From IMG/VR virus record IMGVR_UViG_3300022905_000587, positions 1 through 20,278 of that record: 20,278 bases of DNA; one strand, given 5' to 3'. The position numbers were made by a program, and so were the translations under genes. This DNA comes from a virus. Of the stretch, positions 1,790-16,060 are shown piece by piece. The stretch's first letter is position 1. Each line of letters opens with the position of its first letter. The notes under the pieces were generated by a model that was given only the letters and a program-made list of their open reading frames with translations, was not told the DNA's origin and did no database searches.

Positions 1790-1798
1790 AAAGAAACA

Positions 1799-2758: not shown

Positions 2759-2913
2759 GCCAAGTAAAGGAATTTAGAATAGAGTGTGAAGAATGTGATA
2801 ATGTCACAACTATTTTATCTGAATATACCACTGATGAACCTGCCTTCTGTCCTATGTGTGGTCGTAGACAAGATGCAGAAGAAATAGAGGAAGAAGAATA
2901 CGATGATAGTTGA
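2755..2913 (+). CDS. Small zinc-ribbon protein, 52 aa
   Basis: Tiny protein with four cysteines in two knuckles: CEEC at 11-14 and CPMCG at 32-36, giving CX2C-X17-CX2C, the layout of a rubredoxin-like zinc ribbon. The remainder is very acidic, with a run of glutamates at the C-terminus. Its ATG overlaps the nrdB stop (ATGA) and its own end overlaps the next gene by 11 bases, so it is translationally coupled on both sides. Such ribbons bind nucleic acid or protein partners, but the role here is unknown. The placement in the nrd cluster may only reflect compact packing. The intact frame, cysteine spacing and tight overlaps are the evidence that it is a real gene. Confidence 0.75.
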   Translation: MSQVKEFRIECEECDNVTTILSEYTTDEPAFCPMCGRRQDAEEIEEEEYDDS

Positions 2914-3235
2914 TCTTCTTTTCTGGGCCTTACTTGTGTATGCACTCATTCAGTTGGGTGCATTTATCCAACGAATGAAATACGAAATGGAATTAGATGA
3001 TGATGAGGAAGAAGAAGATGAAGAACCAATTGAAGTTGTAGCAATGATTGAATATCATAATGGTGTTATGTACGCATATGATGAAAGTAAATTTTTAGGT
3101 CAAGGTGAAACAATGGAAATTCTTGAACAGCACATTGTATCAAGAGTTAAAGATCTATATAATCATAACGTCAGAATTATCATGATGACGGAAGATAAAG
3201 ATTTAATTACTAGATATAATCTAACCCCAATTTAA
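2903..3235 (+). CDS. One-helix membrane-anchored acidic protein, 110 aa
   Basis: I do not recognise the family. The N-terminus has a hydrophobic segment at about residues 4-24 (LLFWALLVYALIQLGAFI), reading as a single transmembrane helix or an uncleaved signal anchor. It is followed by a dense acidic run (residues 32-42) and a soluble C-terminal domain of about 65 residues with alternating hydrophobic pattern. The likely topology is N-terminal anchor with a cytoplasmic domain, but the sequence does not settle orientation. A purine-rich stretch with GAGG at 2887-2890, inside the previous gene, could act as ribosome binding site, 12 bases before the ATG. The gap to the next gene is 19 bases. 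Confidence 0.7.
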   Translation: MIVDLLFWALLVYALIQLGAFIQRMKYEMELDDDEEEEDEEPIEVVAMIEYHNGVMYAYDESKFLGQGETMEILEQHIVSRVKDLYNHNVRIIMMTEDKDLITRYNLTPI

Positions 3236-3254
3236 GCTTGAAATATATAGTTCC

Positions 3255-3680
3255 ATGTGGCTATATAATAATCAAGAATTTAAAGAAACACCAGAAGAAT
3301 TTCAAGGCTTCGTGTATTGCATAACAGAACTCAGTACTGGTATGATGTACATAGGCAAGAAATTCTTTTGGAAACCCAAAGTCCTTCCTGTCAACAAGAC
3401 ACGGAAACGTAGAGTCCGAACCAGAGTAGAATCTGATTGGCGTAACTACTACGGCTCAAATAAGTTCTTAAGACAACTTATTGAAGCAAACGGCAAAGAT
3501 AACTATAAACGAGAGATACTTAAACTGTGTAGATCCAAGGGTGAATGCTCTTACTACGAAGCCAAGCTCCAGTTTGAATATGATGTTCTATTGAGTCCGA
3601 AGTATTATAATGAGTTTATTGGTTGTAAGATCAACGCAGCACACTTGAAACTTGCCATTGAAGATGGTTTGGATTTGTAA
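3255..3680 (+). CDS. GIY-YIG family nuclease, 141 aa
   Basis: Predicted single-domain endonuclease. The GIY half is GFVY at 18-21 and the YIG half is YIGKK at 32-36, followed by a basic segment (residues 36-58), SDWRNYYGS at 60-68, and YYEAK with Glu102 as the probable metal-binding glutamate; NEFIG at 119-123 fits the conserved asparagine region. There is no separate DNA-binding domain, so it is not a classical two-domain homing enzyme such as I-TevI. A free-standing homing endonuclease beside nrdB would parallel T4, where homing genes lie in and near nrd genes; a role in repair or host DNA degradation is equally possible. No good ribosome binding site precedes the ATG. It is followed by a promoter, so it is probably the last gene of the nrd transcript. 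Confidence 0.78.
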   Translation: MWLYNNQEFKETPEEFQGFVYCITELSTGMMYIGKKFFWKPKVLPVNKTRKRRVRTRVESDWRNYYGSNKFLRQLIEANGKDNYKREILKLCRSKGECSYYEAKLQFEYDVLLSPKYYNEFIGCKINAAHLKLAIEDGLDL

Positions 3681-3705
3681 TACTTTTTAATTATGCAAAT
3701 AGTTG

Positions 3706-3734
3706 TTTACATTCGTGTCTAGATGTGATATAAT
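3706..3734 (+). promoter_or_regulatory. Class I sigma70-like extended -10 promoter for RNase H
   Basis: TTTACA at 3706-3711, spacer of 17, TATAAT at 3729-3734, with TGA directly before it (extended -10, TGn). It lies in the 86-base gap between two genes and 32 bases before the start codon. Three other sites in the window share this exact architecture. Confidence 0.88.
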
Positions 3735-3766
3735 CTATATACTTACCCGGAGGAAATAGGTATACC

Positions 3767-4618
3767 ATGATTATTTTTGACTACAACGCAATTGCCCTGG
3801 CCGCAATTATGGCCAACAAAGTTGTTGAGCCTAACCTAGCCCGCCATATGATTCTAAATACTATTAGAATGTATCGGCAAAAATTCCCCAAAAAAGACTA
3901 TGGTGATACCATCATCGCCTGTGATGCTTCAGGTAATTGGCGTAAAGAAGTTTTTCCTCAGTATAAGGCAAACCGTAAAAAGAGTCGTGATGCATCATCA
4001 TTCGATTGGGATGCAGCATTTGAAATCCTTAATGAAGTGCGCGAAGAACTTCGTAATAATTTCCCCTATAAATTAATTCAAATCAATGGTTGTGAGGCCG
4101 ATGATATTATTGGCACCCTTGCTTATAATACACAAGAATTTGGTCAATTCGAAAATGTTGTAATCATCTCTAATGATCATGACTTTGCTCAACTACAAGT
4201 TATGGATAACGTTAAACAATTTGGTCCATTACAGAAAAAGTTTATTGTAGAGAAAAATCCCAAACTTAAATTGCTCACCCATATCTTTAAGGGTGATGCA
4301 GGCGATGGTGTACCTAATGTATTATCAGGTGATAATGTATTCGTCGAGGGTACGCGTCAGACACCGGTAAGCCAAAAGAAATTGGATGCCATGATAAAAG
4401 ACCTTGATGATGGTGAATTACTTTATGCTGCTTCGTGGTATCGTAATTACCAGCGTAATCAACGGTTGGTTGATTTGAAATATACACCAGATCATTTGCG
4501 TAAGGAAATCCTTACTGCATTTGAAAAAGAGCCAATTGGTAAGGGCTCACTAGTCTTACCGTATCTTATAAATAAAAAATGTAAGATGTTAATTGAATGT
4601 GCATCGGAGTTTATGTAA
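3767..4618 (+). CDS. rnh: T4-type RNase H / 5'-3' flap exonuclease
   Basis: Member of the FEN/5' nuclease family that removes RNA primers from lagging-strand fragments in T4-like phages. Metal-binding acidic residues are spread as expected: Asp5 (IIFDYN), Asp53 (ACDASGNWRKEVFPQYKANR, with the basic helical-arch residues after it), Glu110-Asp112-Asp113 (CEADDIIG), Asp137 and Asp139 (SNDHDF), and Asp177/Asp180 in GDAGDGVPN, which opens the helix-3-turn-helix DNA-binding motif. Length is 283 residues, against 305 in T4 RNase H. A strong GGAGG at 3750-3754 precedes the ATG, and a class I promoter lies just upstream, so it heads a transcript. The next gene starts two bases after its stop. Confidence 0.92.
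   Translation: MIIFDYNAIALAAIMANKVVEPNLARHMILNTIRMYRQKFPKKDYGDTIIACDASGNWRKEVFPQYKANRKKSRDASSFDWDAAFEILNEVREELRNNFPYKLIQINGCEADDIIGTLAYNTQEFGQFENVVIISNDHDFAQLQVMDNVKQFGPLQKKFIVEKNPKLKLLTHIFKGDAGDGVPNVLSGDNVFVEGTRQTPVSQKKLDAMIKDLDDGELLYAASWYRNYQRNQRLVDLKYTPDHLRKEILTAFEKEPIGKGSLVLPYLINKKCKMLIECASEFM
4567..4574 (+). promoter_or_regulatory. Possible T4-type late promoter box
   Basis: Exact TATAAATA, the T4 late-promoter core, inside the 3' end of rnh and about 46 bases before the next start codon. In AT-rich DNA a chance match is likely. The DsbA-like gene in this window makes T4-style late transcription plausible, but a late promoter for this particular gene is not otherwise supported. Confidence 0.25.
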
Positions 4619-4619
4619 T

Positions 4620-5045
4620 ATGGCAACAACATTATTGATTCATGAAGTTATTGAACTTGTGAATAAACAGAAAACTAAAGCAGATAAGATTAAAGTGCTC
4701 AAACAACATGAGTCTTGGGCACTTAAAGATATTATCAGGGGATCAATGGATACTACATTGAATTGGAATTTACCTGTAGGTACTCCACCTTATACCCCCT
4801 GTACACCAGAAAGCACACCAGCAACTCTATTACGAGAGAATACAAAGTTCAAATACTTTGTTAAAGGTGGTCCTGGTACCAAACTTCCATCCTTCAAAAG
4901 AGAACAAATGTTTATTGGGATAATTGAAAGCGTACATCCACAAGATGCACTACTTGTAATTGATATGATAGCTAAGAAAACACCTAAAGGCTTGACTCGA
5001 CCATTAATAAAGGAGGCGTTCCCCGGTCTACTTCGTGATGATTAA
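4620..5045 (+). CDS. Conserved T4-like phage protein of unknown function, 141 aa
   Basis: Soluble, mixed alpha/beta-looking protein with a charged N-terminal helix (residues 1-35), a proline/threonine-rich middle (PVGTPPYTPCTPESTP, about 54-69) and a C-terminal part containing EREQMFIGIIE-like helix, HPQDA and KGLTRPLIKEAFPGLL. This pattern resembles a family I recall from T4-like cyanophages (possibly DUF6433); I have not verified the family. An earlier in-frame ATG at 4593 lies inside rnh and lacks a ribosome binding site; the ATG at 4620 has GGAG at 4606-4609 with good spacing, so I choose it. It is two bases from the RNase H stop and most likely co-expressed with it, which hints at a replication-related role. 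Confidence 0.8.
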   Translation: MATTLLIHEVIELVNKQKTKADKIKVLKQHESWALKDIIRGSMDTTLNWNLPVGTPPYTPCTPESTPATLLRENTKFKYFVKGGPGTKLPSFKREQMFIGIIESVHPQDALLVIDMIAKKTPKGLTRPLIKEAFPGLLRDD

Positions 5046-5074
5046 TTTTCAACAATTAACAGGAGACCATATCC

Positions 5075-5233
5075 ATGGTATTGAATCAAATCGAACGTTT
5101 AAGAAAAGATTATCAAGAACTCGGTATCTATGCTAAAAGGCTAGAGAAGAGAGGTGATTTAGAAAAGATGCAGAGAATACTGGATAAACAAAAGTTCTTA
5201 AATCAAAGAATTGAAGCAAGTCAACTACACTAA
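5075..5233 (+). CDS. Small charged helical protein, 52 aa
   Basis: Not a recognised family. The whole chain is predicted helical by eye: regularly spaced Leu/Ile/Tyr with Lys/Arg/Glu between them, suggesting a short coiled coil or helical hairpin. The ATG has AGGAG at 5061-5065, nine bases away, which is strong support for translation. It lies 29 bases after the preceding gene and before a class I promoter, so it closes the RNase H transcript. Confidence 0.65.
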   Translation: MVLNQIERLRKDYQELGIYAKRLEKRGDLEKMQRILDKQKFLNQRIEASQLH

Positions 5234-5248
5234 GGTCTAAAATAGGAG

Positions 5249-5277
5249 TTTACATCCCTCTCGTTTTGTGGTATAAT
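5249..5277 (+). promoter_or_regulatory. Class I extended -10 promoter
   Basis: TTTACA at 5249-5254, spacer of 17, TATAAT at 5272-5277 preceded by TGG. It lies in an intergenic gap, 30 bases before the ATG at 5308. Its position rules out the in-frame TTG at 5266 as the start of the downstream gene, since that codon would fall inside the promoter. Confidence 0.87.
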
Positions 5278-5307
5278 ACATACTATGGAACAGAGGGATT
5301 TTATATT

Positions 5308-5874
5308 ATGAATGTTTTTATATTAGATAATGATCCAATCATTGCGGCGCAGTTACAGTGTGACAAACACGTTGTAAAAATGATTGTAGAATCTGCACAA
5401 ATGCTTTCAACAGCACATCGAATGCTTGATGGTATTATGTCATTTGGTCCATCCAAGTCAGGCAAACGTACCGTTGCACACTATCGCCATCCAGACGCAG
5501 GTATGGACAGTGTATTATACAAAGTTGTTCATGCAAGTCATCCCTGTACCAAATGGACAATGCTTAGTGCTTGTAATTACGAATGGCACTACCAACACTT
5601 TATTGCACTATGTGATGAATACCAGTATAGATACAATAGACAACATAGTACAGATGCGTTATTGCGGTCAAAGTTAAAGCAACATCCTAGGAATATTCCT
5701 AAGCAAGGCCTTACACTATTTCCTCTTGCTATGAAGTCAAACCCAGAGTGCATGTTCGAGGATGACCCAGTAAAGTCATATCGCATGTTTTATCAGACAA
5801 AACAAGATCGGTTTAAAATGACTTGGTCAAAACGCAATGTCCCGGAGTGGTTCCATGCCAACGTATACAATTAA
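5308..5874 (+). CDS. Conserved phage protein with CDKHVVKMIVES motif, 188 aa
   Basis: The start is the ATG at 5308, after GAGGG at 5293-5297 and downstream of the promoter. The N-terminus (NVFILDNDP..AAQLQCDKHVVKMIVESAQMLSTAHR) and the later HP-C-KW and GLTLFPLAM segments match a protein type I recall as common in T4-like phages of aquatic bacteria, of unknown function. Histidine and cysteine residues (Cys18, His21, and the HASHPCTKW segment) could bind metal or catalyse a reaction. The next gene starts inside its 3' end (20-base overlap). It heads a transcript that continues through PhoH to the exonuclease, so a nucleic-acid-related job is plausible but unproven. Confidence 0.8.
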   Translation: MNVFILDNDPIIAAQLQCDKHVVKMIVESAQMLSTAHRMLDGIMSFGPSKSGKRTVAHYRHPDAGMDSVLYKVVHASHPCTKWTMLSACNYEWHYQHFIALCDEYQYRYNRQHSTDALLRSKLKQHPRNIPKQGLTLFPLAMKSNPECMFEDDPVKSYRMFYQTKQDRFKMTWSKRNVPEWFHANVYN

Positions 5875-6088
5875 AGATATTAAAACTAATAAAGAGTGGG
5901 ATGTTAGATGCTCTTATGATGATTTACAAAAACAATTAAATGAGAATCCAGATATCATTCGAGTAGTTGATGCACCAACGCTAGTCACTGGTACCGTATC
6001 AACGTTGCGTAAAGCCGGCGGTGAGTGGAAAGACTTGTTAGGTAATATTAAGAAAAGCTCAGGCAAAGGGAATACAATTAATGACTAG
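5855..6088 (+). CDS. Conserved small phage protein (MPTYTIKD type), 77 aa
   Basis: I choose the ATG at 5855 because GGAG at 5844-5847 is correctly spaced and because the resulting N-terminus, MPTYTIKDIKTNKEWDVRC, is the typical beginning of a small phage family related in outline to FmdB-type zinc ribbons. This copy lacks the usual cysteine pairs (only Cys19 is present), so no zinc ribbon is expected. The C-terminal part (GGEWKDLLGNIKKSSGKGNTIN) is basic and glycine/serine-rich, as in homologues I recall from other aquatic phages. It overlaps the genes on both sides (20 and 8 bases). Function unknown. Confidence 0.75.
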   Translation: MPTYTIKDIKTNKEWDVRCSYDDLQKQLNENPDIIRVVDAPTLVTGTVSTLRKAGGEWKDLLGNIKKSSGKGNTIND

Positions 6089-6758
6089 TGCAAAAGTAAA
6101 AGAGACCGATTTGATTCAAGTACATCCTATTACTCAGAATCAACAAAAGGCCTTTGATGCATGGGATGATGGTGATAACCTGGTCCTTGCAGGTTCTGCC
6201 GGTACTGGTAAAACTTTTATGGCAATGTACCTTGCTCTGGAAGAAGTCTTGGATAAATCCACTGGCTATGATAAAATTGTTCTACTGCGCTCAGTAGTAC
6301 CAGTCCGTGATATGGGTTTCTTGCCTGGTACTGTCGAGGAAAAGAAAGCATCATATGAGATTCCATATAAAGGTATCTGTGATGAATTATTTAGAGACCC
6401 TGCCGCATATGCCAAGTTAAAGAATAATAAACAAATTGATTTTGAAACAACCTCATTTATTCGAGGTACCACTTTTCACCGTACCATCATCATTGTTGAT
6501 GAGATGCAGAACCTAAATTTCCATGAATTGGATTCTGTGATGACACGTGTGGGAAACCATTGCCGCATTATCTTCTGTGGAGACTATCTCCAGTCAGATT
6601 TTACCTACGACAATGAACGAGACGGCGTTATGAAATTCCTTCGTATCGTTGACCAACTTAAGTATTTTACGGTCGTTACTTATGGTTGGGATGACATTGT
6701 TAGATCGGGATTGGTCCGTGATTATATCATGACCAAGGAAATGTTAGGTTTAAAATGA
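6081..6758 (+). CDS. phoH: PhoH-like P-loop ATPase
   Basis: Single-domain PhoH-type NTPase of 225 residues. The Walker A motif is GSAGTGKT at 38-45, the Walker B is IIIVDEMQN at 136-144 (Asp140, Glu141), and IIFCGDYLQSD at 163-173 is the family's sensor-like GD segment. RSVVPVRDMGFLPG at 70-83 is also diagnostic. PhoH genes are very common in large aquatic phages; the product resembles the N-terminal part of superfamily I helicases, and the biochemical role in phages is unsettled (RNA helicase, ribonuclease-linked or phosphate-related roles have been proposed for the family). It starts 8 bases inside the previous gene with AAGGG at 6066-6070 as likely ribosome binding site and overlaps the next gene by ATGA. 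Confidence 0.92.
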   Translation: MTSAKVKETDLIQVHPITQNQQKAFDAWDDGDNLVLAGSAGTGKTFMAMYLALEEVLDKSTGYDKIVLLRSVVPVRDMGFLPGTVEEKKASYEIPYKGICDELFRDPAAYAKLKNNKQIDFETTSFIRGTTFHRTIIIVDEMQNLNFHELDSVMTRVGNHCRIIFCGDYLQSDFTYDNERDGVMKFLRIVDQLKYFTVVTYGWDDIVRSGLVRDYIMTKEMLGLK

Positions 6759-7084
6759 AAAAACTTTTAGTTGCACTACTGTTTGTATCCACAGCAGTAT
6801 TTGCGCAGACAGAAAAACGACAGCAAACGGTAAAATGTTTTCCGCTGGATGATATTGCAAAAATGTTAGATAAATGGAAAGAAGAACCTGTATTCTTTAT
6901 GGACACATTGGTGTATGGAATTAATGGCGAAATTGAAAACCGCGAAACTATCTTTACAGTAAATACACAAACACGTCGATGGACATTGCTAACTCAAGTT
7001 AGCCCTGACACAGTTTGTATTCAAGGTGCTGGCGAAAATTTTAATATAGTTGGTGGTGAAAGTAAAAAAAATAATGGTGTTTGA
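6755..7084 (+). CDS. Small exported protein with signal peptide, 109 aa
   Basis: The N-terminus is a textbook Sec signal: two lysines, a hydrophobic core (LLVALLFVSTAV) and VFA-Q with cleavage after Ala17. The mature protein is about 92 residues, with two cysteines (28 and 88) that could form a disulfide in the periplasm, and a segment of predicted beta strands (VYGINGEIENRETIFTVNTQTRRWTLLTQ). I do not recognise the family. The ATG overlaps the phoH stop, so it is translated from the same message. An exported phage protein made along with early metabolic genes could modify the host envelope, but the sequence shows no catalytic motif. Confidence 0.8.
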   Translation: MKKLLVALLFVSTAVFAQTEKRQQTVKCFPLDDIAKMLDKWKEEPVFFMDTLVYGINGEIENRETIFTVNTQTRRWTLLTQVSPDTVCIQGAGENFNIVGGESKKNNGV

Positions 7085-7742
7085 GCATGTCAAAATTGAT
7101 CTCGGTTATCAGGATTTGGTTGCAGAAACTACTAAGTCTGGGCGAAAGTACATTGACCCTGATGGGAATTCTTATCCTTCTATTACTACAGTTCTTAGTA
7201 TACTGAGTGAAGAAGCTATTCAAGCATGGCGTGCACGTGTTGGTGAAGAAGAGGCTAATAAGATTAGTCATAAAGCATCAACACGCGGTACAGCAGTACA
7301 TACCATTATTGAGGATTATTTAAATGGAAAAGATACTACAAAACACTTACCACACATTAAACAAAGCCTGGCTAACGTCCGTCCCATACTTGACGGCCGT
7401 ATCGGGAAAATCTACGGCATCGAAACTCCTCTTTACTCTAAGCATCTTGGCTTGGCTGGCCGTTGTGATTGTGTAGCAGACTTTGATGGGGTACCGTCAA
7501 TCGTTGACTGGAAAACATCCAAACGAGTTAAGAAGAAGGAAGACATCTCTAATTACTTTGCACAGATGGCAGCATATGCTATTATGTGGGAAGAACGCAC
7601 TGGTATGCCAATTACTAATACTGTGGTCGTTATGGATGTTGATGATAATGAACCACTAGTATTTAAAGAACACCGTGATAATTGGACCGAACTATTGTTT
7701 GATACTATTCAAAAGTATAAACGTCGACAAATGTTTAAATAA
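7074..7742 (+). CDS. PD-(D/E)XK exonuclease, MGME1-like
   Basis: RecB-fold nuclease. The active-site core is GLAGRCDCVADFDGVPSIVDWKTSK: Asp132, then Asp145-x-Lys147, the same 13-residue spacing and D-x-K pattern as the Asp238/Asp251/Lys253 site of the human mitochondrial exonuclease MGME1. The N-terminal PSITTVLS, AWRAR and RGTAVHTIIEDYL segments (His76) also follow that family's order, and QMAAYAIMWE is the usual helix after the site. It probably acts on single-stranded ends in recombination or replication. An in-frame TTG at 7050 is possible, but the ATG at 7074 gives the natural N-terminus MVFEHVKIDLGYQ. It overlaps the previous gene by 11 bases and ends its transcript; a promoter follows at once. 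Confidence 0.88.
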   Translation: MVFEHVKIDLGYQDLVAETTKSGRKYIDPDGNSYPSITTVLSILSEEAIQAWRARVGEEEANKISHKASTRGTAVHTIIEDYLNGKDTTKHLPHIKQSLANVRPILDGRIGKIYGIETPLYSKHLGLAGRCDCVADFDGVPSIVDWKTSKRVKKKEDISNYFAQMAAYAIMWEERTGMPITNTVVVMDVDDNEPLVFKEHRDNWTELLFDTIQKYKRRQMFK

Positions 7743-7746
7743 GGTG

Positions 7747-7775
7747 TTTACTTTTTAGGCTAGTTGTGATATAAT
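7747..7775 (+). promoter_or_regulatory. Class I extended -10 promoter for the sugar gene block
   Basis: TTTACT at 7747-7752, spacer of 17, TATAAT at 7770-7775 preceded by TGA. It starts five bases after the exonuclease stop and 23 bases separate the -10 from the next ATG. It is the only clear promoter seen ahead of the genes at 7798-15963. Confidence 0.86.
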
Positions 7776-7797
7776 CCTTATATAAAGGAAATATATT

Positions 7798-8394
7798 ATG
7801 AATGTAATTTTGACAGATGTTGATGGTGTGTTACTCAATTGGCAAGGGGCCTTTGACGCTTGGATGATGCGTGAACATGGTCTCTTTGCCACTGGTAATG
7901 AACGTGCTTATATGCAAGGCACTCGGTTTGAGATGTCCGAACCAGAGATCAAAAAATATATCCGAAGCTTTAACGCCTCGGCAAATATTGGATTCCTTCC
8001 ACCACTGTTTGATGCAGTGAAAGGTGTGAAGAAACTACATGATGAATACGGTTACAAATTTCTTGTGATCACTAGTCTATCATTGAATCCATTTGCTCAG
8101 AAACTTCGGACTCAAAACCTTGAAGCAATCTTTGGTGCTCACGTCTTTGAGGAATTTGTCTATCTCGATACTGGTGCAGATAAGACTGAGGTCCTTAAAT
8201 GCTATGCACATTTATATCCCAATGCGTATTGGATTGAAGACAAGGTTGCCAATGCAATTGATGGTCGTTCTGCAGGTCTAAGATCTTTACTAATGAAACA
8301 CATACATATTAAAGAAGAAGATGCCTGTGGTATTCCTATTATGTCAAATTGGAAAGCCGTTGTTAATGAAATTACAGATCCTGTGGAATATTAA
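7798..8394 (+). CDS. HAD-superfamily phosphatase / nucleotidase-like
   Basis: Haloacid dehalogenase fold hydrolase of 198 residues. Motif I is LTDVDGVLLNW with the nucleophile Asp7 and Asp9; motif II is LVITSLS (Thr92/Ser93); the acidic motif III/IV is YWIEDKVANAIDG (Glu147, Asp148). An insertion between motif I and II (residues 16-75) forms a C1-type cap. Phage proteins of this type are often called 5'(3')-deoxyribonucleotidases, but here the gene opens a block of sugar genes, so a sugar-phosphate phosphatase is a fair alternative. AAGGAA at 7784-7789 is the ribosome binding site. Its stop overlaps the next start (TAATG). Confidence 0.82.
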   Translation: MNVILTDVDGVLLNWQGAFDAWMMREHGLFATGNERAYMQGTRFEMSEPEIKKYIRSFNASANIGFLPPLFDAVKGVKKLHDEYGYKFLVITSLSLNPFAQKLRTQNLEAIFGAHVFEEFVYLDTGADKTEVLKCYAHLYPNAYWIEDKVANAIDGRSAGLRSLLMKHIHIKEEDACGIPIMSNWKAVVNEITDPVEY

Positions 8395-9188
8395 TGAAAC
8401 GTTTAATTTATCAAGTCTATCTTGGAAAATCTAGCCGACTTTACGATCACTGTATAAAATCTGTTAGTACTTATTGCGAACAACATAATATTGATCATGT
8501 TGTCCAACGAGTTCCTTTGCTTAAAATCAAACCAGATGTATTCGCAACCAATCGTAGTAAAGAGTCATATGAAAAGCATGGTGGGTTTCTACCCATTTAT
8601 GAAAAAGAAAATGCTTTTACATATTTAAAAGATTATGATCAAGTAGCAATTGTTGATGCAGATATTTTTATTAAAGATACTGCGCCGAATGTTTTTGATA
8701 ATTTTAGCAATGAGTATGAATTTGGTGGAGTAGTTGAGCGTGATATGCCAATTACATCTCAGTACCAGCAAAAGATCATTAATTACTCTCGTATGCAGTA
8801 TGAATCACTACACGGTAAGGTTGCTGATTTTACTCCCAATAAATTTGGATATGAGTTTATGAATATGGGTCTTATGGTAATGAATAAATCAATTATGAAA
8901 TACTTTAAGCCAGGTGAAACACCTAAAGATTTTATTAGTCGGCCAGAGTTTAAAGACTTTGTAGATGGTAAGGGTGCTTGGAAATGGTCAACGGACCAAA
9001 CATTGCTGAACACTTGGATCCGTAAGGAAAAGATGAATATTAAACGCCTTGATTGGAAATGGAATGCTTTGTATAAAGGTGTCCGTGATGATAAGATTAA
9101 GGAAGCACACTTTGTGCATTTTTTCCTAAAAGATCTATTACCTGAACGTGGTGAGAATGTAGAAGAATTAATGAAGGCAATTAAATGA
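8394..9188 (+). CDS. GT-A fold glycosyltransferase, 264 aa
   Basis: Probable nucleotide-sugar glycosyltransferase of GT8-like type. The chain opens with MKRLIYQVYLG, the same pattern as three other genes in the block, and has a DAD metal-binding motif at 88-90 in QVAIVDADIFIK. Downstream, FGYEFMNMGLMVMN matches the region that holds the acceptor-binding asparagine/glycine in GT8-like enzymes, and AHFVHFFLKD fits the C-terminal histidine that helps bind the metal. No signal peptide or membrane segment is visible, so it acts in the cytoplasm. Donor and acceptor cannot be predicted. It overlaps the upstream gene by one base and the downstream gene by ATGA. Confidence 0.82.
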   Translation: MKRLIYQVYLGKSSRLYDHCIKSVSTYCEQHNIDHVVQRVPLLKIKPDVFATNRSKESYEKHGGFLPIYEKENAFTYLKDYDQVAIVDADIFIKDTAPNVFDNFSNEYEFGGVVERDMPITSQYQQKIINYSRMQYESLHGKVADFTPNKFGYEFMNMGLMVMNKSIMKYFKPGETPKDFISRPEFKDFVDGKGAWKWSTDQTLLNTWIRKEKMNIKRLDWKWNALYKGVRDDKIKEAHFVHFFLKDLLPERGENVEELMKAIK

Positions 9189-10330
9189 AAGTAATGGTAT
9201 TAGGTGGTGATGGCTTCTGTGGTTGGCCGACATCGCTCAAACTGGCCAACCGTGGTCATAGTGTTATGATTGTCGACAACTTCTCTCGCCGACGAATTGA
9301 TACTGAATTAAATAGTAATTCTCTCACACGAATTGCTGATATTGATTCTAGAATTACTAGAGCTAATATCCTTATTGGTGAGATTGATTACCGATTTATT
9401 GATATTGCACAGCAATACGATGAGTTTAAAACTCTTGTTGAGCAATGGCAACCTGATACCATTGTCCATTTTGCAGAACAACGGGCAGCACCATACTCAA
9501 TGGTATCACAAAAGGAACGTCGTTACACGGTTGATAATAATATCAGTGCAACACATAATGTTCTCAATGCCATTGTTGATGTAAATCCTAATATCCATCT
9601 TGTGCATCTTGGTACAATGGGTGTTTATGGATACTCTAAAGACTTTGGAGATATTCCAGAAGGTTATCTGAATATTAAAGTAAACTCAACCGAAAAGGAT
9701 GTGGATATTCTTTATCCAACAAATCCTGGTAGTGTTTATCACATGACAAAGTCAATGGATCAGTTGCTATTCCAGTTTTATAATAAGAATTGGAAATTAA
9801 AAATCACTGACCTACATCAAGGTATCGTATGGGGTACGGAGACGGAGGAGACAAAACTTGATCCTGACTTGGTAAACCGATTTGACTATGATGGTATCTA
9901 TGGTACTGTGCTGAATAGGTTTATTTCACAAGCAGCAGCAGATGTCCCACTGACCATCTATGGTACCGGTGGACAAAAACGTGCTTTTATTCACATTGAG
10001 GATACTACTAATTGTGTTTCACTAGCCGCAGAAAATCCACCAGAGAATACCGACAAGGTCCGAATTTTTAACCAAGTTTCTGAAGTCTGTTCTGTAAAAC
10101 AACTTGCAATGATTATTGGTAAACAATATGGTGCACAGATTAATTACTATAATAATCCTAGAAAAGAACTTGCTGAAAATGATTTATCCGTAAGCAATGA
10201 AGGTCTTCGGTCACTTGGATTTGAACCAATCCTACTTACCACTGCACTGATTGATGATGTAAAATTTATTGCTGAAACAGTAAGAGCTAATCTAAACAAA
10301 GCAAATGTAATGACCTCACCCAACTGGTAA
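9185..10330 (+). CDS. sqdB: UDP-sulfoquinovose synthase-like SDR enzyme
   Basis: Extended short-chain dehydrogenase of 381 residues with the signature of SqdB/SQD1, which makes UDP-sulfoquinovose from UDP-glucose and sulfite. The Rossmann start is VLGGDGFCGWP (residues 5-15); VHFAEQRAAPYSM (94-106) nearly equals the SqdB-specific EQRSAPYSM block; LGTMGVYG holds Thr144; the catalytic pair is Tyr185-x3-Lys189 (SVYHMTK); TDLHQGIVWGTETEET, NRFDYDGIYGTVLNRF, GTGGQKRAFIHIEDT and the later IFNQ and NPRKE segments follow SqdB order through to the C-terminus. No catalytic residue appears missing. The start overlaps the previous glycosyltransferase by ATGA. Other NDP-sugar epimerases lack the EQR-APYSM and NQ/NPR blocks, so I prefer SqdB; activity on UDP-glucose is inferred. 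Confidence 0.86.
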   Translation: MKVMVLGGDGFCGWPTSLKLANRGHSVMIVDNFSRRRIDTELNSNSLTRIADIDSRITRANILIGEIDYRFIDIAQQYDEFKTLVEQWQPDTIVHFAEQRAAPYSMVSQKERRYTVDNNISATHNVLNAIVDVNPNIHLVHLGTMGVYGYSKDFGDIPEGYLNIKVNSTEKDVDILYPTNPGSVYHMTKSMDQLLFQFYNKNWKLKITDLHQGIVWGTETEETKLDPDLVNRFDYDGIYGTVLNRFISQAAADVPLTIYGTGGQKRAFIHIEDTTNCVSLAAENPPENTDKVRIFNQVSEVCSVKQLAMIIGKQYGAQINYYNNPRKELAENDLSVSNEGLRSLGFEPILLTTALIDDVKFIAETVRANLNKANVMTSPNW

Positions 10331-10334
10331 TATT

Positions 10335-11159
10335 ATGAAGACTGCAATTTATCAATATTGGGATGGTGTGGAACGCCCAGGTAATATGGCTGGCGTAAAG
10401 GCAATGAAGACCTATGCCGAACGAATCGGCGCTGATCATATCTATGAATTAAACCCTGGATTCAGAAAAGACCTAGGTCAGTACTCTCCCCATTATGGAA
10501 AGTTTAAACCAATCTATGACGACAAGTTTGCTGATTATGATTATGTTATGTACGTTGACTGTGATGTTGTTCCTACGGTAAATTGCACAGATGTAAATTG
10601 CACTGAAAATATTTTTGAAGAGTTTGCCAAAACCGGATGTGAAATCGGCATCTGTGAAGAGATTACTGCACCCGTGACACGTAAGAACTTTACCATTGGT
10701 GGTGGTATCAATAACGCCAATGATGAGAAATGGGTAGAACTTATTGAAAAGAAATGGCCTGTAAAAATGCCACGGACCAATGCAGGTTTACCTAGAGTCT
10801 ATAACTCTGGTATGTTAATCTTTTCAAAGAAAGGTCTACGTAAGGCAAGAGAGAAGTTCTTTGATTTTGCCAAATATGTAAATCTTATTTCAGTTTTTAA
10901 ACTACCTTCATTCTATACTTGTGACCAACCGTATATACATGCCATGTTGGAAGTATGTAAGTTTGATTGGGTGACGATGCCTTATAAGTGGAATAGTTCT
11001 GTGCATTATGATCCAGGTGTGAAGATGAAACCACGTCCAGTGATTGACCTACGAAACAATGCTAACTTCGTACATGTTCAATTGAATGGTGCTGATGATT
11101 GGGATGAAGATAAAATTAATAGAGTTGTAAATTTGCCTGTATCGGAGTGGGATCTATGA
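10335..11159 (+). CDS. GT-A fold glycosyltransferase, 274 aa
   Basis: Paralogue of the neighbouring glycosyltransferases: it opens with MKTAIYQYWDG and has a DxD metal site, Asp75-Cys-Asp77, in YVMYVDCDVVP. Just after that site an imperfect 15-base duplication encodes VNCTD-VNCTE (residues 82-91). RVYNSGMLIFSKKGL (about 154-168) is the usual NSG acceptor/metal loop and FVHVQLNGADDW is the C-terminal histidine region. There is no signal peptide, so the enzyme should be cytoplasmic. It begins four bases after the sqdB stop with only a weak ribosome binding site, implying coupling, and its end overlaps the next gene by ATGA. Donor sugar unknown; proximity to sqdB makes UDP-sulfoquinovose one candidate. 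Confidence 0.82.
   Translation: MKTAIYQYWDGVERPGNMAGVKAMKTYAERIGADHIYELNPGFRKDLGQYSPHYGKFKPIYDDKFADYDYVMYVDCDVVPTVNCTDVNCTENIFEEFAKTGCEIGICEEITAPVTRKNFTIGGGINNANDEKWVELIEKKWPVKMPRTNAGLPRVYNSGMLIFSKKGLRKAREKFFDFAKYVNLISVFKLPSFYTCDQPYIHAMLEVCKFDWVTMPYKWNSSVHYDPGVKMKPRPVIDLRNNANFVHVQLNGADDWDEDKINRVVNLPVSEWDL
10578..10607 (+). repeat. 15-base in-frame tandem duplication
   Basis: Two adjacent 15-base units (10578-10592 and 10593-10607) share their first 11 bases, GTAAATTGCAC, and then diverge. They encode VNCTD and VNCTE directly behind the DxD motif of a glycosyltransferase. Confidence 0.8.
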
Positions 11160-11836
11160 AGAATCTAATTTTACAATATTGGACTGGACCTTTGCCCGAG
11201 TGGGCTAGGTTAGCAATGAAGTCAATTGAACTGTATGCCAAAGATATCAGTGCTGATTATCAACTTGTAAGTGGTTGGCCTTTAGGTGAGTTCCGTGGCA
11301 CTGTATCACAAAAAATCTGTCTTGTGAAAGAAGAATATGATTCATATGATAATGTGCTCATGCTTGATACTGACATGGTTTATAGCGGCATTGCTGATAA
11401 TGCATTTCAATACGATGGGATTGGTCGGTACCATCTAAAAGCAATGAGTTCACATCTTTCAAGTAAACAAGGTCGGTATTGGCCAAGACTTTATAAACAA
11501 GGTTCACCACTGTTCTTTGGTAATTTCATTAAACTGAATCGTGAACAACGTATTACCCTAAGGGCAGCATTACCGAATGAGGAGTTTGTATCAGCAAATA
11601 AAAGTGATCCAAGACTCTCTAGGTTTAATACATCAATGCCGCCGAACGATGAACAGACCTTACATTATATGATCCACACCAGTGGGATGACGGCAGATAA
11701 TTTCGTACCACATAATAGGTTCTGTGACCTACCAGAAGAATCACACACCATGGCAACGTTGATGCATTTCTGTAATGACAGAAAGAATAATATTATAAAT
11801 TATATTAATGATAAACATCAGTTAAAAATTTTATGA
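11156..11836 (+). CDS. GT-A fold glycosyltransferase, 226 aa
   Basis: Third member of the paralogous group, starting MKNLILQYWTG and carrying Asp71-Thr-Asp73 in NVLMLDTDMVYSG. The middle (GSPLFFGNFIKLNRE, about 118-132) occupies the position of the NSG loop, but the NSG itself is replaced by FGN. PNDEQTLHYMI is the usual late acidic segment (DQ/DEQ) of this family. A GTG at 11147 is in frame, but it lies in the GGAG ribosome binding site (11144-11147); the ATG at 11156, overlapping the upstream stop as ATGA, is preferred. It overlaps the next small gene by ATGA. No export signal. Confidence 0.8.
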   Translation: MKNLILQYWTGPLPEWARLAMKSIELYAKDISADYQLVSGWPLGEFRGTVSQKICLVKEEYDSYDNVLMLDTDMVYSGIADNAFQYDGIGRYHLKAMSSHLSSKQGRYWPRLYKQGSPLFFGNFIKLNREQRITLRAALPNEEFVSANKSDPRLSRFNTSMPPNDEQTLHYMIHTSGMTADNFVPHNRFCDLPEESHTMATLMHFCNDRKNNIINYINDKHQLKIL

Positions 11837-12000
11837 ACTATAAAGAACTTTTAATTAAGTATATTAATCACGTAGCAGATAACGAGGGTGTGACGTTTAT
11901 TAAAGATCATTGGCGTGGTGATACTTTTACTCAAGATGAGTGGGATGAACTTATTAAGCTTGATGAGCAGGCCTGGCGTGAAATTAATGGTGAATTATGA
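11833..12000 (+). CDS. Small acidic protein between glycosyltransferases, 55 aa
   Basis: Not recognised. It is acidic and tryptophan-containing (DHWRGD, DEWDELIKLDEQAWREING), predicted helical, with no cysteine or membrane segment. Evidence for a real gene is its exact fit: ATG overlaps the upstream stop (ATGA at 11833-11836) and its own stop overlaps the next ATG (ATGA at 11997-12000), so it fills the space between two glycosyltransferases without loss of a base. A role as partner or adaptor of the neighbouring enzymes is guesswork. Confidence 0.68.
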   Translation: MNYKELLIKYINHVADNEGVTFIKDHWRGDTFTQDEWDELIKLDEQAWREINGEL

Positions 12001-12680
12001 AAAAGAATATTATTCTACAACACTTTGAGGCTCAAGCAGGCAATATAGGTAAACCAATGCCAGAGATTGTGCAAAAGAGCACGGCGAATATTAGAAAATA
12101 TGCTGAACGTCTGGATGCCGAATATCGTCTATTAGATGGACATCCATTCCAAAAAGGCCTTAGGTCACAATGCCAAAAGGTGTGTGCAATTAACGAAGAG
12201 TATGATGAATACGATACTGTGGTTGTATTGGATACGGATAAGTTTGTAACCACAACGTGTACGGACAATGTATTTGAGGCAAAGGGTATCGCACCATTCG
12301 ATGAAGTACATCGTTTAAGACAACTACCAGCGTTTCGTAAAGAATTTCCACTTATATCATCATTGGAATATCCTATGTGGTCTGGAGCGATCTATGTGAT
12401 GCCAAGAGAGTTTAGGCAATTAATGCGTAAACAAATTAATGATCATATGCGTAAAGTGTTTGAATTAATTAGTCCTCGGCCTTATGTCGATGAGGGTATT
12501 TTTCATGTATTATGCTTTAAGGCTAAATTTAAACTTGATAAGTATTTGGATGAGAAATGGGATCACAGTAGCTACTTACCGAACCCAGAGAAAGCAAATA
12601 TGATCCACATAAGGCACAAACCACTAACGAGGATGGAAAACTACTATAACCTGGTTGAACGAGGTATTATATATGAATGA
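11997..12680 (+). CDS. GT-A fold glycosyltransferase, 227 aa
   Basis: Fourth paralogue with the shared opening MKKNIILQHFEA and Asp79-Thr-Asp81 in TVVVLDTDKFV. MWSGAIYVMPREF (about 127-139) is the SGA version of the NSG loop, and DEGIFHVLCF is the late acidic segment. ANMIHIRHKPL at the C-terminus holds the candidate metal-binding histidine. Spacing of these elements matches the genes at 10335 and 11156, which supports origin by tandem duplication followed by strong divergence. Its 3' end overlaps the methyltransferase by 8 bases. Cytoplasmic; donor and acceptor unknown. Confidence 0.8.
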   Translation: MKKNIILQHFEAQAGNIGKPMPEIVQKSTANIRKYAERLDAEYRLLDGHPFQKGLRSQCQKVCAINEEYDEYDTVVVLDTDKFVTTTCTDNVFEAKGIAPFDEVHRLRQLPAFRKEFPLISSLEYPMWSGAIYVMPREFRQLMRKQINDHMRKVFELISPRPYVDEGIFHVLCFKAKFKLDKYLDEKWDHSSYLPNPEKANMIHIRHKPLTRMENYYNLVERGIIYE

Positions 12681-13374
12681 GATGATTAAACCCTTTGCCA
12701 CGATTCGCCGATGTTCTGATGTAATTAGAGAACTACAAAAGCATAATCATCCATTAAATGTTGTATATGATATTGGATGTAATGATGGTCGTTGGACACG
12801 AGAATGTAGAACACTTCTACCGAGTGCGCAGTATATTATGTTTGACGCCAATCCAGAGAATAATGTAACACCCCAAGGATTTGATAAGTTCTTTAATAAA
12901 GTTCTAAGTGACGATGATGGTAAGGTAGTTAAATTTTGGATGGCAGATCCGGGTAAGGAAAATACCGGTAATAGTTACTATAAAGAATTGACAACGAATT
13001 ACAGTCGAAACAAATATATTGAGTTGGAAACATCGATGTTGGATACTGTTGTTGCAGAAAACTATTTGCCACAACCAGACTTTGTGAAAATTGATACTCA
13101 AGGCTCAGAGATTGATATAATCAATGGTGCCCATAAAACTCTTATTAATGCTAAAATGGTTTTAATCGAAGTACCAATTATGAACTATAATAATGGTGCG
13201 CCGGGGTTTACAAGTTATATCGACCTGTTATATAATAATGGATTCGTCCCTACTGGCATTGATCACATTGCTATTCGGAATGGAATTTTAAACCAAGTTG
13301 ATATTACATTTGTAAAATCAGACATTAATCAAGAGATTAATAAACACAGAGATAGATATACTGGATTTATTTGA
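12673..13374 (+). CDS. FkbM-family SAM-dependent methyltransferase, 233 aa
   Basis: Class I methyltransferase. The SAM-binding motif is VVYDIGCNDGRWT (about 30-42), the acidic motif after strand 2 is MFDANPEN (Asp58), and DFVKIDTQGSEIDIINGA (136-153) is the FkbM hallmark. FkbM-type enzymes O-methylate sugars and polyketides, so in this block the likely substrate is a glycan or nucleotide sugar. The ATG at 12673 has GAGG at 12661-12664; a TTG at 12655 is less likely because it would lose that site. The stop overlaps the next ATG by one base (TGATG). No signal sequence. The substrate is inferred only from context. Confidence 0.86.
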   Translation: MNEMIKPFATIRRCSDVIRELQKHNHPLNVVYDIGCNDGRWTRECRTLLPSAQYIMFDANPENNVTPQGFDKFFNKVLSDDDGKVVKFWMADPGKENTGNSYYKELTTNYSRNKYIELETSMLDTVVAENYLPQPDFVKIDTQGSEIDIINGAHKTLINAKMVLIEVPIMNYNNGAPGFTSYIDLLYNNGFVPTGIDHIAIRNGILNQVDITFVKSDINQEINKHRDRYTGFI

Positions 13375-14090
13375 TGAACGCCTATATTATTACATTATTG
13401 GATAATAAAACATCCACGACAGCAGCAAATCGTTGTATTGAATCACATCAAAAATTTCAGATGGATTTTCCTATTGAAATTTATGGTGCAACAAAAGCAG
13501 ATCAAGTGGAGACAACTTTTAAGTTTCTTGAGTTTGATTGGACATATCCATGGGATACACCAAAGACAGAACTTAAATACGGATTGAAACTCTCGCCGTA
13601 TAACACGGTCAATAGAGAAAATCGAATGGCATGTTTTTTGAGTCATTATGGTCTCTGGATGAAATGTGTGAGTCGTAATGAACCCATTCTTATTTTAGAA
13701 CATGATGCAATATTTATCCGCAGACTGAACCCTGAATATATCCTAGAATCAAAATATGGTATTATTGGTCTCAATGACCCACTGGGTGCTACACGTCGTG
13801 CCGATGTCTTTGATAGTCAAATTCAGACAATGCGAGGTGTGAAGTACGATGAGGATAAAGTCCTACCAGTACCCACTGTTGATGTGTTTGATGTTCCTCA
13901 AGGCCTTGCTGGTAATTCTGCCTATATAATTAAACCTGAGGCGGCACAACAATTGCTTGATGTCGTCAAAGAACTTGGTGCTTGGCCTAATGATGCAATT
14001 ATGTGTCGACAAACACTACCAGGTGTGCTAGGTGTTACTGGTAAATATTATACTAAGGTACAGGGTACCAAATCAACAACTTCATTATGA
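13374..14090 (+). CDS. GT25-like glycosyltransferase (LPS/collagen type), 238 aa
   Basis: Member of the GT25 group, which includes LPS galactosyltransferases. Hallmarks: AYIITLLDNKTS near the start, RMACFLSHYGLWMKC at 84-98, then ILILEHDAIF with Glu109-His-Asp111 in place of the common EDD metal site. GNSAYIIKPEAAQQLL (about 182-197) is the family's late motif. The ATG at 13374 shares one base with the upstream stop, and the in-frame TTG at 13371 is not needed. The closest relative in the window is the next gene. Cytoplasmic, as typical for LPS enzymes that work at the inner membrane; the acceptor is unknown. Confidence 0.85.
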   Translation: MNAYIITLLDNKTSTTAANRCIESHQKFQMDFPIEIYGATKADQVETTFKFLEFDWTYPWDTPKTELKYGLKLSPYNTVNRENRMACFLSHYGLWMKCVSRNEPILILEHDAIFIRRLNPEYILESKYGIIGLNDPLGATRRADVFDSQIQTMRGVKYDEDKVLPVPTVDVFDVPQGLAGNSAYIIKPEAAQQLLDVVKELGAWPNDAIMCRQTLPGVLGVTGKYYTKVQGTKSTTSL

Positions 14091-14734
14091 ACTCATTTGT
14101 TATTACTATTTACGGAAATAAACAATCCGAAGCCGCTGCACAGAGATGTATAGCATCCTCCAAAAGGTTTGGAGTTGAATCGTTCAATTTCTGGGCAACC
14201 GTACCTAAGGATGATCCAATAAAACAATTGACAGAACTTGGTATTCCCACTGCCAACTTCTATGAGAAATATTCACGGCCTGAAAATTGTATGTCTGCAT
14301 TTCTTTCTCATTACAAGTTATGGGAGATTTGCCATAAGACAGGTAATCCTATGATTATCTTTGAACACGATGCCGTCGTCGTTGATGAACTACCAGTGAA
14401 TGCAAGTTTTGATAAAGTCATGAACATTGGTAAACCATCATATGGTAGGTTTAATGTGCCGACATATTTAGCTGTGGGTCCTTTGGTATCTAAACCTTAC
14501 TTTCCTGGTGCGCATGCTTATATGATTAAATCACAAGGTGCCAAAGCGCTTATGGATAAAGCCAAGGAATGTGGTGGACCTACTGATATATTTTTAAATC
14601 TTAAGAACTTCCCTTGGTTGCAAGAGTTTAATCCCTGGCCAGTCGAGTGCCGTGATTCGTTTACAACAATTCAGAATGAAACTGGTTGTTTGGCCAAGCA
14701 TAACTATGTAAAAGATACCTATGAAATTGTCTAA
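14087..14734 (+). CDS. GT25-like glycosyltransferase, paralogue, 215 aa
   Basis: Second GT25-type enzyme. Its opening (NSFVITIYGNKQSEAAAQRCIASSKRF) aligns without gaps with that of the preceding gene, and it repeats SAFLSHYKLWEIC (70-82) and MIIFEHDAVV with Glu93-His-Asp95. GAHAYMIKSQGAKALM matches the late GNSAYIIKPEAA block. It is about 23 residues shorter than its neighbour. The pair therefore looks like a tandem duplication, with the metal site EHD retained in both. Start and stop overlap the neighbours (ATGA upstream; 14 bases downstream). Donor and acceptor unknown. Confidence 0.85.
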   Translation: MNSFVITIYGNKQSEAAAQRCIASSKRFGVESFNFWATVPKDDPIKQLTELGIPTANFYEKYSRPENCMSAFLSHYKLWEICHKTGNPMIIFEHDAVVVDELPVNASFDKVMNIGKPSYGRFNVPTYLAVGPLVSKPYFPGAHAYMIKSQGAKALMDKAKECGGPTDIFLNLKNFPWLQEFNPWPVECRDSFTTIQNETGCLAKHNYVKDTYEIV

Positions 14735-15362
14735 GTTATTCATCACTGGTTGTGATTTTAAAACCGAGTGGATGTTACCTTGGTTCGTAGAGAATTTTAA
14801 GAAACATAATCCGACTGCCGAACTCGTGATTTATGATTTCGGTATGGAAAGTGGTCTATACCCTGAGTTGAGAAAATCACTAAGAGGTAATCAGGACCGA
14901 GGTTGGTTTAAGAAACCTGCTAGTATGCTCAACGCATTATCACTGGCAGATAAAGTCTGTTGGTTGGATACCGATTGTGAAGTTCTGGGTAACCTGGATG
15001 GTATCTGGGACCACGTAGAGAATGGTAAACTTACGATGGCCGAAGATATGCCATGGTCAACACGATCACAAGAGAAATGGCATAATAGTGGTGTCGTAGC
15101 ATTTGAAAGTTCACCCAACCCACCAATCCTAAAAATATGGGCAGAAGCAGTAGCGGCAAATCCAATTCGTGGTGATCAAGAAGTTCTACATCTATTAGTA
15201 AATGACCCATTGAAGCAATTGATACATATTAACGATCTGCCAAGAAATTATAATGTACTTCGGTTGGATCACTTAGATAAAACTGTGCCAAAAGATCCAA
15301 AAATTTTACATTGGACTGGCCAAAAAGGTAAAGATCATATTAGGAGTTTGATGAATGTCTAG
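14721..15362 (+). CDS. GT-A fold glycosyltransferase, GT8-like, 213 aa
   Basis: Begins KLSKLFITGCDFKTEWMLPWFVENFKKH, the usual first strand and helix of glycosyltransferases that act on activated sugars, and has Asp83-Thr-Asp85 in KVCWLDTDCEVLG. KWHNSGVVAFESS (about 118-130) contains a clear NSG loop, RGDQEVLHLLV the late DQ motif, and ILHWTGQKGKDH the C-terminal H-x3-G-x2-K segment typical of GT8 enzymes. This is the most canonical of the set. It overlaps the upstream gene by 14 bases and the downstream gene by 8. No export signal. Sugar donor not predictable. Confidence 0.84.
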   Translation: MKLSKLFITGCDFKTEWMLPWFVENFKKHNPTAELVIYDFGMESGLYPELRKSLRGNQDRGWFKKPASMLNALSLADKVCWLDTDCEVLGNLDGIWDHVENGKLTMAEDMPWSTRSQEKWHNSGVVAFESSPNPPILKIWAEAVAANPIRGDQEVLHLLVNDPLKQLIHINDLPRNYNVLRLDHLDKTVPKDPKILHWTGQKGKDHIRSLMNV

Positions 15363-15963
15363 AGTTGTCCATGTGATTGGCAATGGTGATAGTGCAGACC
15401 TGTATAACAAAGAAGAACGTAAAGGTCTTAAGTTAACATGTAACCTACCTCCATTTCCTGTACCCAATGTCTATGCAAGTTGCATTGTGGATTTTAAAAT
15501 GATGAAAGCAATCACTGAAGGTGTGATTGATGTTCCTGGTGAGTGGGTGTTGGGATACCGTCCAAAGATTTGGATGGAAAAACATCCGACATTTTTTATG
15601 CAAAGAGCTCAACAGATTAAAGAATTCTTTACAGAAAAACCAAAATACGTTGCCAATTATACTGATTTTAATTGCGGTCATATGGCGGTTTATTATGCAA
15701 TTAAAAAGTTTAATCCAACTGAAATTAATATTTACGGTTTTGATTCCATATTTGATATGAATCTAAGAAGTACATCTGATTTCTTTATGATATCAGATAG
15801 ACAAGCCAATAATAATGTTAGATTAAATGGTAATTGGAGACCAATTTGGCATAAGTTATTTAATGAATTTAATTCAGTTAATTTTAGATTACACCATTTT
15901 CATAATCAAATTAAATTCGAAGTTGGTAATAATGTTGAAGTTATTACTTATGGCAAAAAGTAA
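15355..15963 (+). CDS. GNG-S motif protein, possible glycan enzyme, 202 aa
   Basis: The opening VVHVIGNGDSADLY with the later LTCNLPPFP, an aspartate-containing SCIVDFKMM and INIYGFDSIFD has the outline of Rossmann-like proteins of the DUF115/sialyltransferase-like kind, in which the first glycine-rich loop is GNG-S and a CN follows after the second strand. I cannot assign it to a family with certainty. FNCGHMAVYYAIKKF is a likely helix packing on that core. It is the last gene of the sugar block, so transfer or processing of a sugar is the natural guess. Its TAA stop forms one edge of the palindrome at 15961-15976, and a class II promoter follows. Confidence 0.72.
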   Translation: MSRVVHVIGNGDSADLYNKEERKGLKLTCNLPPFPVPNVYASCIVDFKMMKAITEGVIDVPGEWVLGYRPKIWMEKHPTFFMQRAQQIKEFFTEKPKYVANYTDFNCGHMAVYYAIKKFNPTEINIYGFDSIFDMNLRSTSDFFMISDRQANNNVRLNGNWRPIWHKLFNEFNSVNFRLHHFHNQIKFEVGNNVEVITYGKK

Positions 15964-16001
15964 TACCTAGGTATTATACTCAATCTTATACGAAAGTATT
16001 A
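15961..16001 (+). promoter_or_regulatory. Two 16-bp dyads (candidate operator) upstream of class II promoter
   Basis: Site A at 15961-15976 is a perfect palindrome, TAATAC-CTAG-GTATTA, and includes the preceding stop codon. Site B at 15986-16001 is TTATAC-GAAA-GTATTA. Both have the form TWATAC-N4-GTATWA, with centres 25 bp apart, and site B ends directly against the -35 box at 16002. The arrangement suggests dimer binding sites for a regulator on one face of the DNA. Neither is a terminator: there is no loop of normal size in A and no T-run after either. Confidence 0.55.
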
Positions 16002-16006
16002 TGTAC
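15982..16006 (+). repeat. 25-base direct repeat, copy 1
   Basis: Identical over 25 bases to 17156-17180 (copy 2). In both copies it ends in ATGTAC, 17 bases before TATAAT. A partial inverted copy, 19 of 25 bases matching, lies at 16801-16825. Confidence 0.9.
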
Positions 16007-16029
16007 ATCTAGGTTGGTCATGATATAAT
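16002..16029 (+). promoter_or_regulatory. Class II extended -10 promoter, cassette 1
   Basis: TGTACA at 16002-16007, spacer of 16, TATAAT at 16024-16029 preceded by TGA. The -35 box is poor for sigma70, while the -10 is perfect and extended. It drives the metallopeptidase gene through a leader (CCATACCAACCAAACAAGGA, 16034-16053) that is repeated in two other cassettes. Confidence 0.8.
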
Positions 16030-16060
16030 AGATCCATACCAACCAAACAAGGACGTACAT

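Follow-up and report, generated by a model that had tools for sequence, protein, structure and literature searches.

Described UDP-sulfoquinovose synthases and phage glycosyltransferase islands

Sulfoquinovose is known mainly from the sulfolipid (SQDG) of plants and bacteria and from one archaeal S-layer glycan, and cyanobacteria as a group make SQDG. In Rhodobacter sphaeroides the sulfolipid operon is sqdBDC, and a ΔsqdB strain loses SQDG (PMC11346425). The archaeal enzyme Agl3 of Sulfolobus acidocaldarius makes UDP-sulfoquinovose for an S-layer N-glycan and not for a lipid (PMC4388408). Pelagimyophages carry hypervariable islands rich in GT8 genes, which have been proposed to change the host O-chain against coinfection (PMC7029224). 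The only earlier phage report of a UDP-sulfoquinovose synthase gene that we found in the literature is a putative one in a Mu-like virus from the Cariaco Basin (PMC7785012), a different type of phage for which we saw a single annotation in the main text and no cassette or subtype analysis.

The gene described here lies in a window of 20,278 nucleotides, the whole stretch of DNA that was analyzed (IMG/VR record IMGVR_UViG_3300022905_000587). Its product shares full length, 53-56% identity and the motifs GTMGVYGYS and SxYHMTK with the sqdBDC-type SqdBs of R. sphaeroides and Sinorhizobium meliloti, the former likened by operon order; unlike in those operons, no SqdD or SqdC adjoins it, and it sits in a glycosyltransferase cassette. 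With Arabidopsis SQD1 (PDB 1qrr, 1i24, 1i2b) and classical cyanobacterial SqdB it shares 40-41% identity, the catalytic Thr/Tyr/Lys and the fold (TM 0.96 to SQD1), but it has Val147 for Glu and falls on a separate tree branch. Its role is likened to that of Agl3, although Agl3 carries Glu147 and the tree was built without an Agl3 sequence. As in the pelagimyophage islands, T4-like marine phages, GT8-type transferases and gene-cassette variation come together; whereas those islands lie between VrlC and gp14 with tail fibers, the present block comes after PhoH/PDDEXK and contains, in addition, a UDP-sulfoquinovose synthase.

The phage and its glycosyltransferase block

The window belongs to an uncultured marine T4-like phage related to the Kyanoviridae. 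It contains the T4-type core genes NrdA/B, RNase H, PhoH and a SegE-like gene, and the gp23 capsid gene, which lies outside the window itself, is present in all seven large relatives (L010, L028, L042, L064, L014, L017 and L018). By NrdB, Phage C48C1 comes closest among isolates (82%), followed by OM43 phage Melnitz (67%); together with SAR11 phage Mosig they are the nearest cultured relatives. No host is given for Phage C48C1, and no literature on it was found. At 2-1789 the window has an NrdA fragment with a C-terminally fused glutaredoxin domain (PF00462, 2.4e-12), and at 18854-19390 a peroxiredoxin-like protein (Redoxin, 8e-17) flanked by tRNA-Arg and tRNA-Asn genes. The block and its surroundings consist of the following features.

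6081-7742, plus strand: T4-like core genes (PhoH, PDDEXK nuclease) preceding the block on its left; phage Melnitz has them in the same order
7798-8394, plus strand: conserved protein without a Pfam match that forms the left conserved flank of the block; its N-terminal DVDGVL looks HAD-like on visual inspection
8394-9188, plus strand: GT-A/GT8-like glycosyltransferase belonging to the phage paralogue family; lies immediately left of the exchange point
9185-13374, plus strand: exchanged cassette (SqdB, three glycosyltransferases and FkbM methyltransferase), missing in L231 and L232, which match on both sides
9185-10330, plus strand: UDP-sulfoquinovose synthase homologue (SqdB), 381 amino acids, ATG start, intact; first gene of the cassette
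10335-11159, plus strand: GT-A/GT8-like glycosyltransferase, 4-base gap after SqdB; DxD, NSG and DQxY motifs
11147-11836, plus strand: GT-A/GT8-like glycosyltransferase paralogue, within the cassette
11997-12680, plus strand: GT-A/GT8-like glycosyltransferase paralogue, within the cassette
12655-13374, plus strand: FkbM-family methyltransferase (PF05050, 8e-13; TIGR01444); last gene of the cassette
13371-14090, plus strand: GT25 glycosyltransferase (ATG at 13374; PF01755, 3.9e-15); right conserved side of the block
14087-14734, plus strand: GT25 glycosyltransferase paralogue (PF01755, 3.4e-9)
14721-15362, plus strand: GT8/Nucleotid_trans-like glycosyltransferase (PF03407, 1.7e-4)
15355-15963, plus strand: conserved block protein with a weak MptE-like/DUF115 match (E 0.027)

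The initial annotation had counted seven glycosyltransferases near SqdB, and the same number was recovered: those at 8394, 10335, 11147 and 11997, which form one paralogous family, the two GT25 enzymes (13371 and 14087) and the GT8/Nucleotid_trans-like one (14721). The AlphaFold (AF2) model of the 10335 enzyme (pLDDT 94) has a GT-A fold with LgtC, WbbM and the PBCV-1 capsid glycosyltransferase as best matches (TM ~0.5), and LARGE1, at 1e-4, was its sole match in a PDB profile search. Among the SqdB contigs with T4-type neighbor genes, which are partly non-independent, this family is present in all 41 listed and directly adjoins SqdB in 30, with a median gap of 1 base. No isolated phage with the 8394 or 10335 transferase was found, and the GT25 proteins gave weak partial matches. 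In Melnitz, no glycosyltransferase is among the annotated genes of the stretch after PhoH/PDDEXK. Within the window no flippase, polymerase, initiating transferase or tail fiber gene was recognized.

Identity and subtype of the phage SqdB

The gene at 9185-10330 encodes a protein of the SqdB family, as indicated by family match, modeled fold and conserved catalytic residues. Against NCBIfam it matches NF041015 (UDP-sulfoquinovose synthase) over residues 1-367 at 2.5e-106 and 356 bits, with the next family at 49 bits; by sequence its best PDB match is SQD1 (~1e-84, 288 bits, residues 2-381), followed at 6e-9 and 38 bits. The curated cut-off of NF041015 is 575 bits, and classical cyanobacterial SqdBs (463-467), sulfolipid-operon SqdBs (324-337) and GVYGY-type SqdBs of bacterial genomes (324-351) lie below it; the phage protein is also below it and scores at least as high as the GVYGY-type set. 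The AF2 model (pLDDT 90.4) superimposes on SQD1 with TM 0.96/0.94 and rmsd 1.2 A, and the runner-up folds have a TM of ~0.7; no SqdB-like structure was found among the BFVD viral models, where the best TM was 0.70. Chance similarity or misannotation is ruled out by the NCBIfam, PDB and model matches. The initial annotation had described a full-length SqdB-type protein with GGDGFCGW, EQRAAPYSM, T144/Y185/K189 and NRFDYDGIYGTVLNRF, and the intact reading frame bears all of these motifs, the first at residues 7-14.

One detail of the kinship needs correcting. Bacterial SqdB is the closest family, and Agl3 is not: in alignment A1 the phage protein has Val where SQD1 and Agl3 carry Glu147, and its motif is GTMGVYG, that of a bacterial SqdB subtype, instead of the GTMGEYG of the SQD1/Agl3 subtype. 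Because of Val147 we file it under the bacterial subtype only, and an enzyme of the SQD1/Agl3 type is ruled out by the subtype motif and the tree. The residue is explained by cellular homologues from alphaproteobacteria, actinobacteria, bacilli and cyanobacteria, 53-69% identical, that share GTMGVYG. The residues tested for catalysis in SQD1 and Agl3 are otherwise kept (T144, M145, Y148, Y185, H186, K189, H95 and R100), and phage H95, R100, M145, Y148, S183 and T188 match the mutation-tested His95, Arg101, Met145, Tyr148, Ser180 and Thr185 of Agl3, the mutants of which are the sole basis on which the sulfite pocket was judged. Absence of sulfite-binding residues had been set beforehand as a test that could refute the assignment; judged through these catalytic residues, it did not, and the one exception, Glu147, is Val in sulfolipid-operon SqdBs as well.

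One could argue that a protein with the SqdB fold and Val147 makes another UDP-sugar, such as UDP-glucose-5,6-ene or some other 6-modified sugar. The E147A mutant of Agl3 is strongly impaired (PMC4388408), and without sulfite Agl3 makes UDP-Glc-5,6-ene. We consider such a divergent dehydratase or epimerase quite unlikely: every other tested residue is kept, the modeled fold matches SQD1, and Val147 occurs in sulfolipid settings. The gene order SqdB-SqdD-SqdC was found at ten alphaproteobacterial loci, one of them an S. meliloti record, and all ten SqdBs of these operons have Val147; in Xenococcus and Leptothoe the GTMGVYG subtype is the sole SqdB match at E<=1e-40, and in three other cyanobacteria a classical SqdB stands beside a GTMGVYG-type copy. 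Since Val147 is found in the sqdBDC operons and in the only SqdB match of two cyanobacteria, UDP-sulfoquinovose is very likely the product of this subtype, the step through R. sphaeroides being based on operon context. We therefore set aside the idea that loss of Glu147 means loss of function; going by the operon context, Val147 is probably neutral.

The surroundings of the cellular genes gave two further observations. In three cyanobacteria (L107, L076 and L125) a rhodanese-domain gene lies downstream of the second, GVYGY-type SqdB and is a possible local source of sulfite. At L080, L087, L121, L144 and L145 the bacterial SqdB is preceded by a GalU-like nucleotidyltransferase gene (PF00483), which would fit with UDP-glucose supply.

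Exchange of the SqdB cassette

Two close relatives, L231 and L232, lack SqdB. Window positions 4-9189 align with L231 at 82% DNA identity and 13374-16543 at 78%, whereas 9185-13374 is unaligned, and the edges fall at exact gene ends, the stop codon of the 8394 glycosyltransferase and the start of the first GT25 gene (13371). In place of the cassette L231 has a divergent glycosyltransferase, a CmcI/rhamnosyl O-methyltransferase-like protein (weak match, 2e-4), another glycosyltransferase and a polysaccharide pyruvyltransferase (PF04230, 6e-14). The block is thus a cassette locus in which SqdB is swapped as part of a cassette. A search with the 10335 glycosyltransferase returned at least 80 loci, with SqdB at 23 of those listed, and more distant versions of the block contain general NDP-sugar epimerases or HAD-nucleotidyltransferase fusions. 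The fusions of an HAD phosphatase with a nucleotidyltransferase at L217:7158-8510 and L261:5594-6967, also in phage glycosyltransferase blocks, are perhaps another sugar-nucleotide module.

Cassette swapping of this kind is typical of O-antigen-like loci. The swapping out of SqdB within its cassette suggests that what these phages make is not plant-type sulfolipid but sugar coats that carry negative charge and can be exchanged. More tentatively, the block could work as a serotype-like switch, in which the glycosyltransferases are fixed and a swappable middle cassette determines which acidic group decorates a glycan specified by the phage, sulfoquinovose in one case and pyruvate or methyl in the other. 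We know of no earlier sulfonated glycan made by a bacteriophage, and if this switch exists it would be the first.

Role of the phage SqdB

We think it likely that the gene, as part of an exchangeable cassette, encodes a working bacterial-type UDP-sulfoquinovose synthase that would feed the neighboring phage glycosyltransferases for a glycan of the host surface or the virion. During infection the enzyme would convert host UDP-glucose and host sulfite into UDP-sulfoquinovose. None of the 17 large viral records with SqdB contains a PAPS reductase, so the sulfite must be supplied by the host. At least one neighboring GT8-like or GT25 transferase would then place sulfoquinovose onto a glycan, although none of the phage enzymes could be matched to sulfoquinovose as donor. 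The acceptor may be the LOS or O-chain of the host surface, which seems slightly likelier, or a virion protein, a glycan on the virion being the chief alternative to a host O-chain. Several modules would be interchangeable at the site between the fixed glycosyltransferase genes, the SqdB cassette being one of them, and the glycans would therefore differ among related phages, with sulfonation in some and probably pyruvylation or methylation in others. Such a glycan would likely serve to block competing phages or to alter recognition.

Alternatively, the phage may raise UDP-sulfoquinovose to boost SQDG synthesis by the SqdD/SqdC or SqdX of its host, for instance to replace phospholipid under phosphate limitation. 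Bacterial homologues of the phage subtype do occur in sqdBDC or SqdX-like contexts, and phoH, which is associated with phosphate starvation, lies nearby; it is, however, outside the exchanged cassette and is retained in phages without SqdB. The initial annotation had pointed to the lack of SqdX near the gene, and the window indeed contains no SqdX-type GT4, a family also missing in six of the seven large relatives. By itself this says little, because alphaproteobacteria use SqdD and SqdC and need no SqdX. Neither set of sulfolipid genes, SqdB with the GT4 SqdX or with the GT8 SqdD and SqdC, was found at the phage locus: no orthologue of SqdD or SqdX was found among the phage glycosyltransferases, hhalign aligning them to SqdD just at the DxD motif and to SqdX not at all. 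SqdB instead lies among GT8-like and GT25 genes and is swapped jointly with them, and the alternative cassettes carry polysaccharide-modifying genes. The loci of the nearest cellular homologues hold Stf0 sulfotransferases with GT4/GT2 genes (L073) and ABC-2 export with sugar genes (L074), and a search with a positive control found no SqdD in either genome. Bacterial GTMGVYG-type SqdBs were also found beside a PAPS reductase and a sulfotransferase in a polysaccharide cluster and beside BcsB/GT2 genes. The lack of SqdD and SqdX orthologues, the scarcity of GT4 and the position of the nearest cellular SqdBs in surface-polysaccharide loci without SqdD therefore favor a glycan, and we regard increased sulfolipid synthesis as unlikely.

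A virion, DNA or cell-surface glycan had been proposed in the initial annotation. The cassette exchange with pyruvyl- and methyltransferase genes, the loci of the nearest cellular homologues and the lack of SqdD/SqdX orthologues support the glycan in general, whereas the DNA option found no positive support. On that option a sulfonated sugar on modified phage DNA bases would evade host nucleases; T4 glucosylates its own DNA, glycosyltransferases are present here, and two of the seven large relatives have a gene of the Thymidylat_synt family. That family is missing in the other five and includes ordinary thymidylate synthase, and as a hint of DNA modification it is uninformative. GT25 and GT8 enzymes have been described chiefly in LPS or protein glycosylation, and no base-modifying enzyme was recognized within the window, making DNA glycosylation very improbable.

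A UDP-sulfoquinovose synthase that is conserved, under selection and swappable in a phage lineage would bring a sulfonated sugar into the glycans of phages or of infected hosts, and might represent a new source of sulfoquinovose in the sea. Phages that are ~80% alike on both flanks, with and without the cassette, offer a clean natural comparison for phage glycan function.

Distribution and evolution of viral SqdBs

SqdB was not found in 50,697 phage records, and it is encoded at no fewer than 71 IMG/VR loci, many of the contigs being fragments. In one T4-like lineage the gene occupies a block of GT8-like and GT25 glycosyltransferases that is itself conserved. Tree placement had been set beforehand as a test that could refute the assignment, and in a quick-method tree of 84 rows with long outgroup branches the SqdB rows, the window protein among them, separate from the epimerase outgroup with an SH-aLRT of 100. 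The window SqdB falls within a set of 32 rows (SH-aLRT 96) composed of viral sequences and two Rhodobacteraceae, the family of its nearest cellular SqdBs, and the remaining viral SqdBs nest elsewhere among the bacterial ones. The AU test rejects one common origin for the viral SqdBs (p 4e-5; 9 virus/cell state changes), and acquisition was therefore repeated. The dN/dS between the window SqdB and that of L004 is 0.051; the phage gene is under strong purifying selection.

One viral contig (L063:9788-11203, IMGVR_UViG_3300028840_003032) has separately acquired a classical GTMGEYG-type SqdB, and its next ORF belongs to cluster 32. Another viral SqdB, of 752 amino acids (L065:8372-10630, IMGVR_UViG_3300005512_004867), contains an intein-like insert of ~350 amino acids that starts with CYDKETELL, ends with WCGN and matches LAGLIDADG_3 (3.7e-8) and Intein_splicing (2.9e-5). 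This insert splits the catalytic Tyr-His-x-x-Lys motif between Tyr-His-Leu and Ser-Lys.
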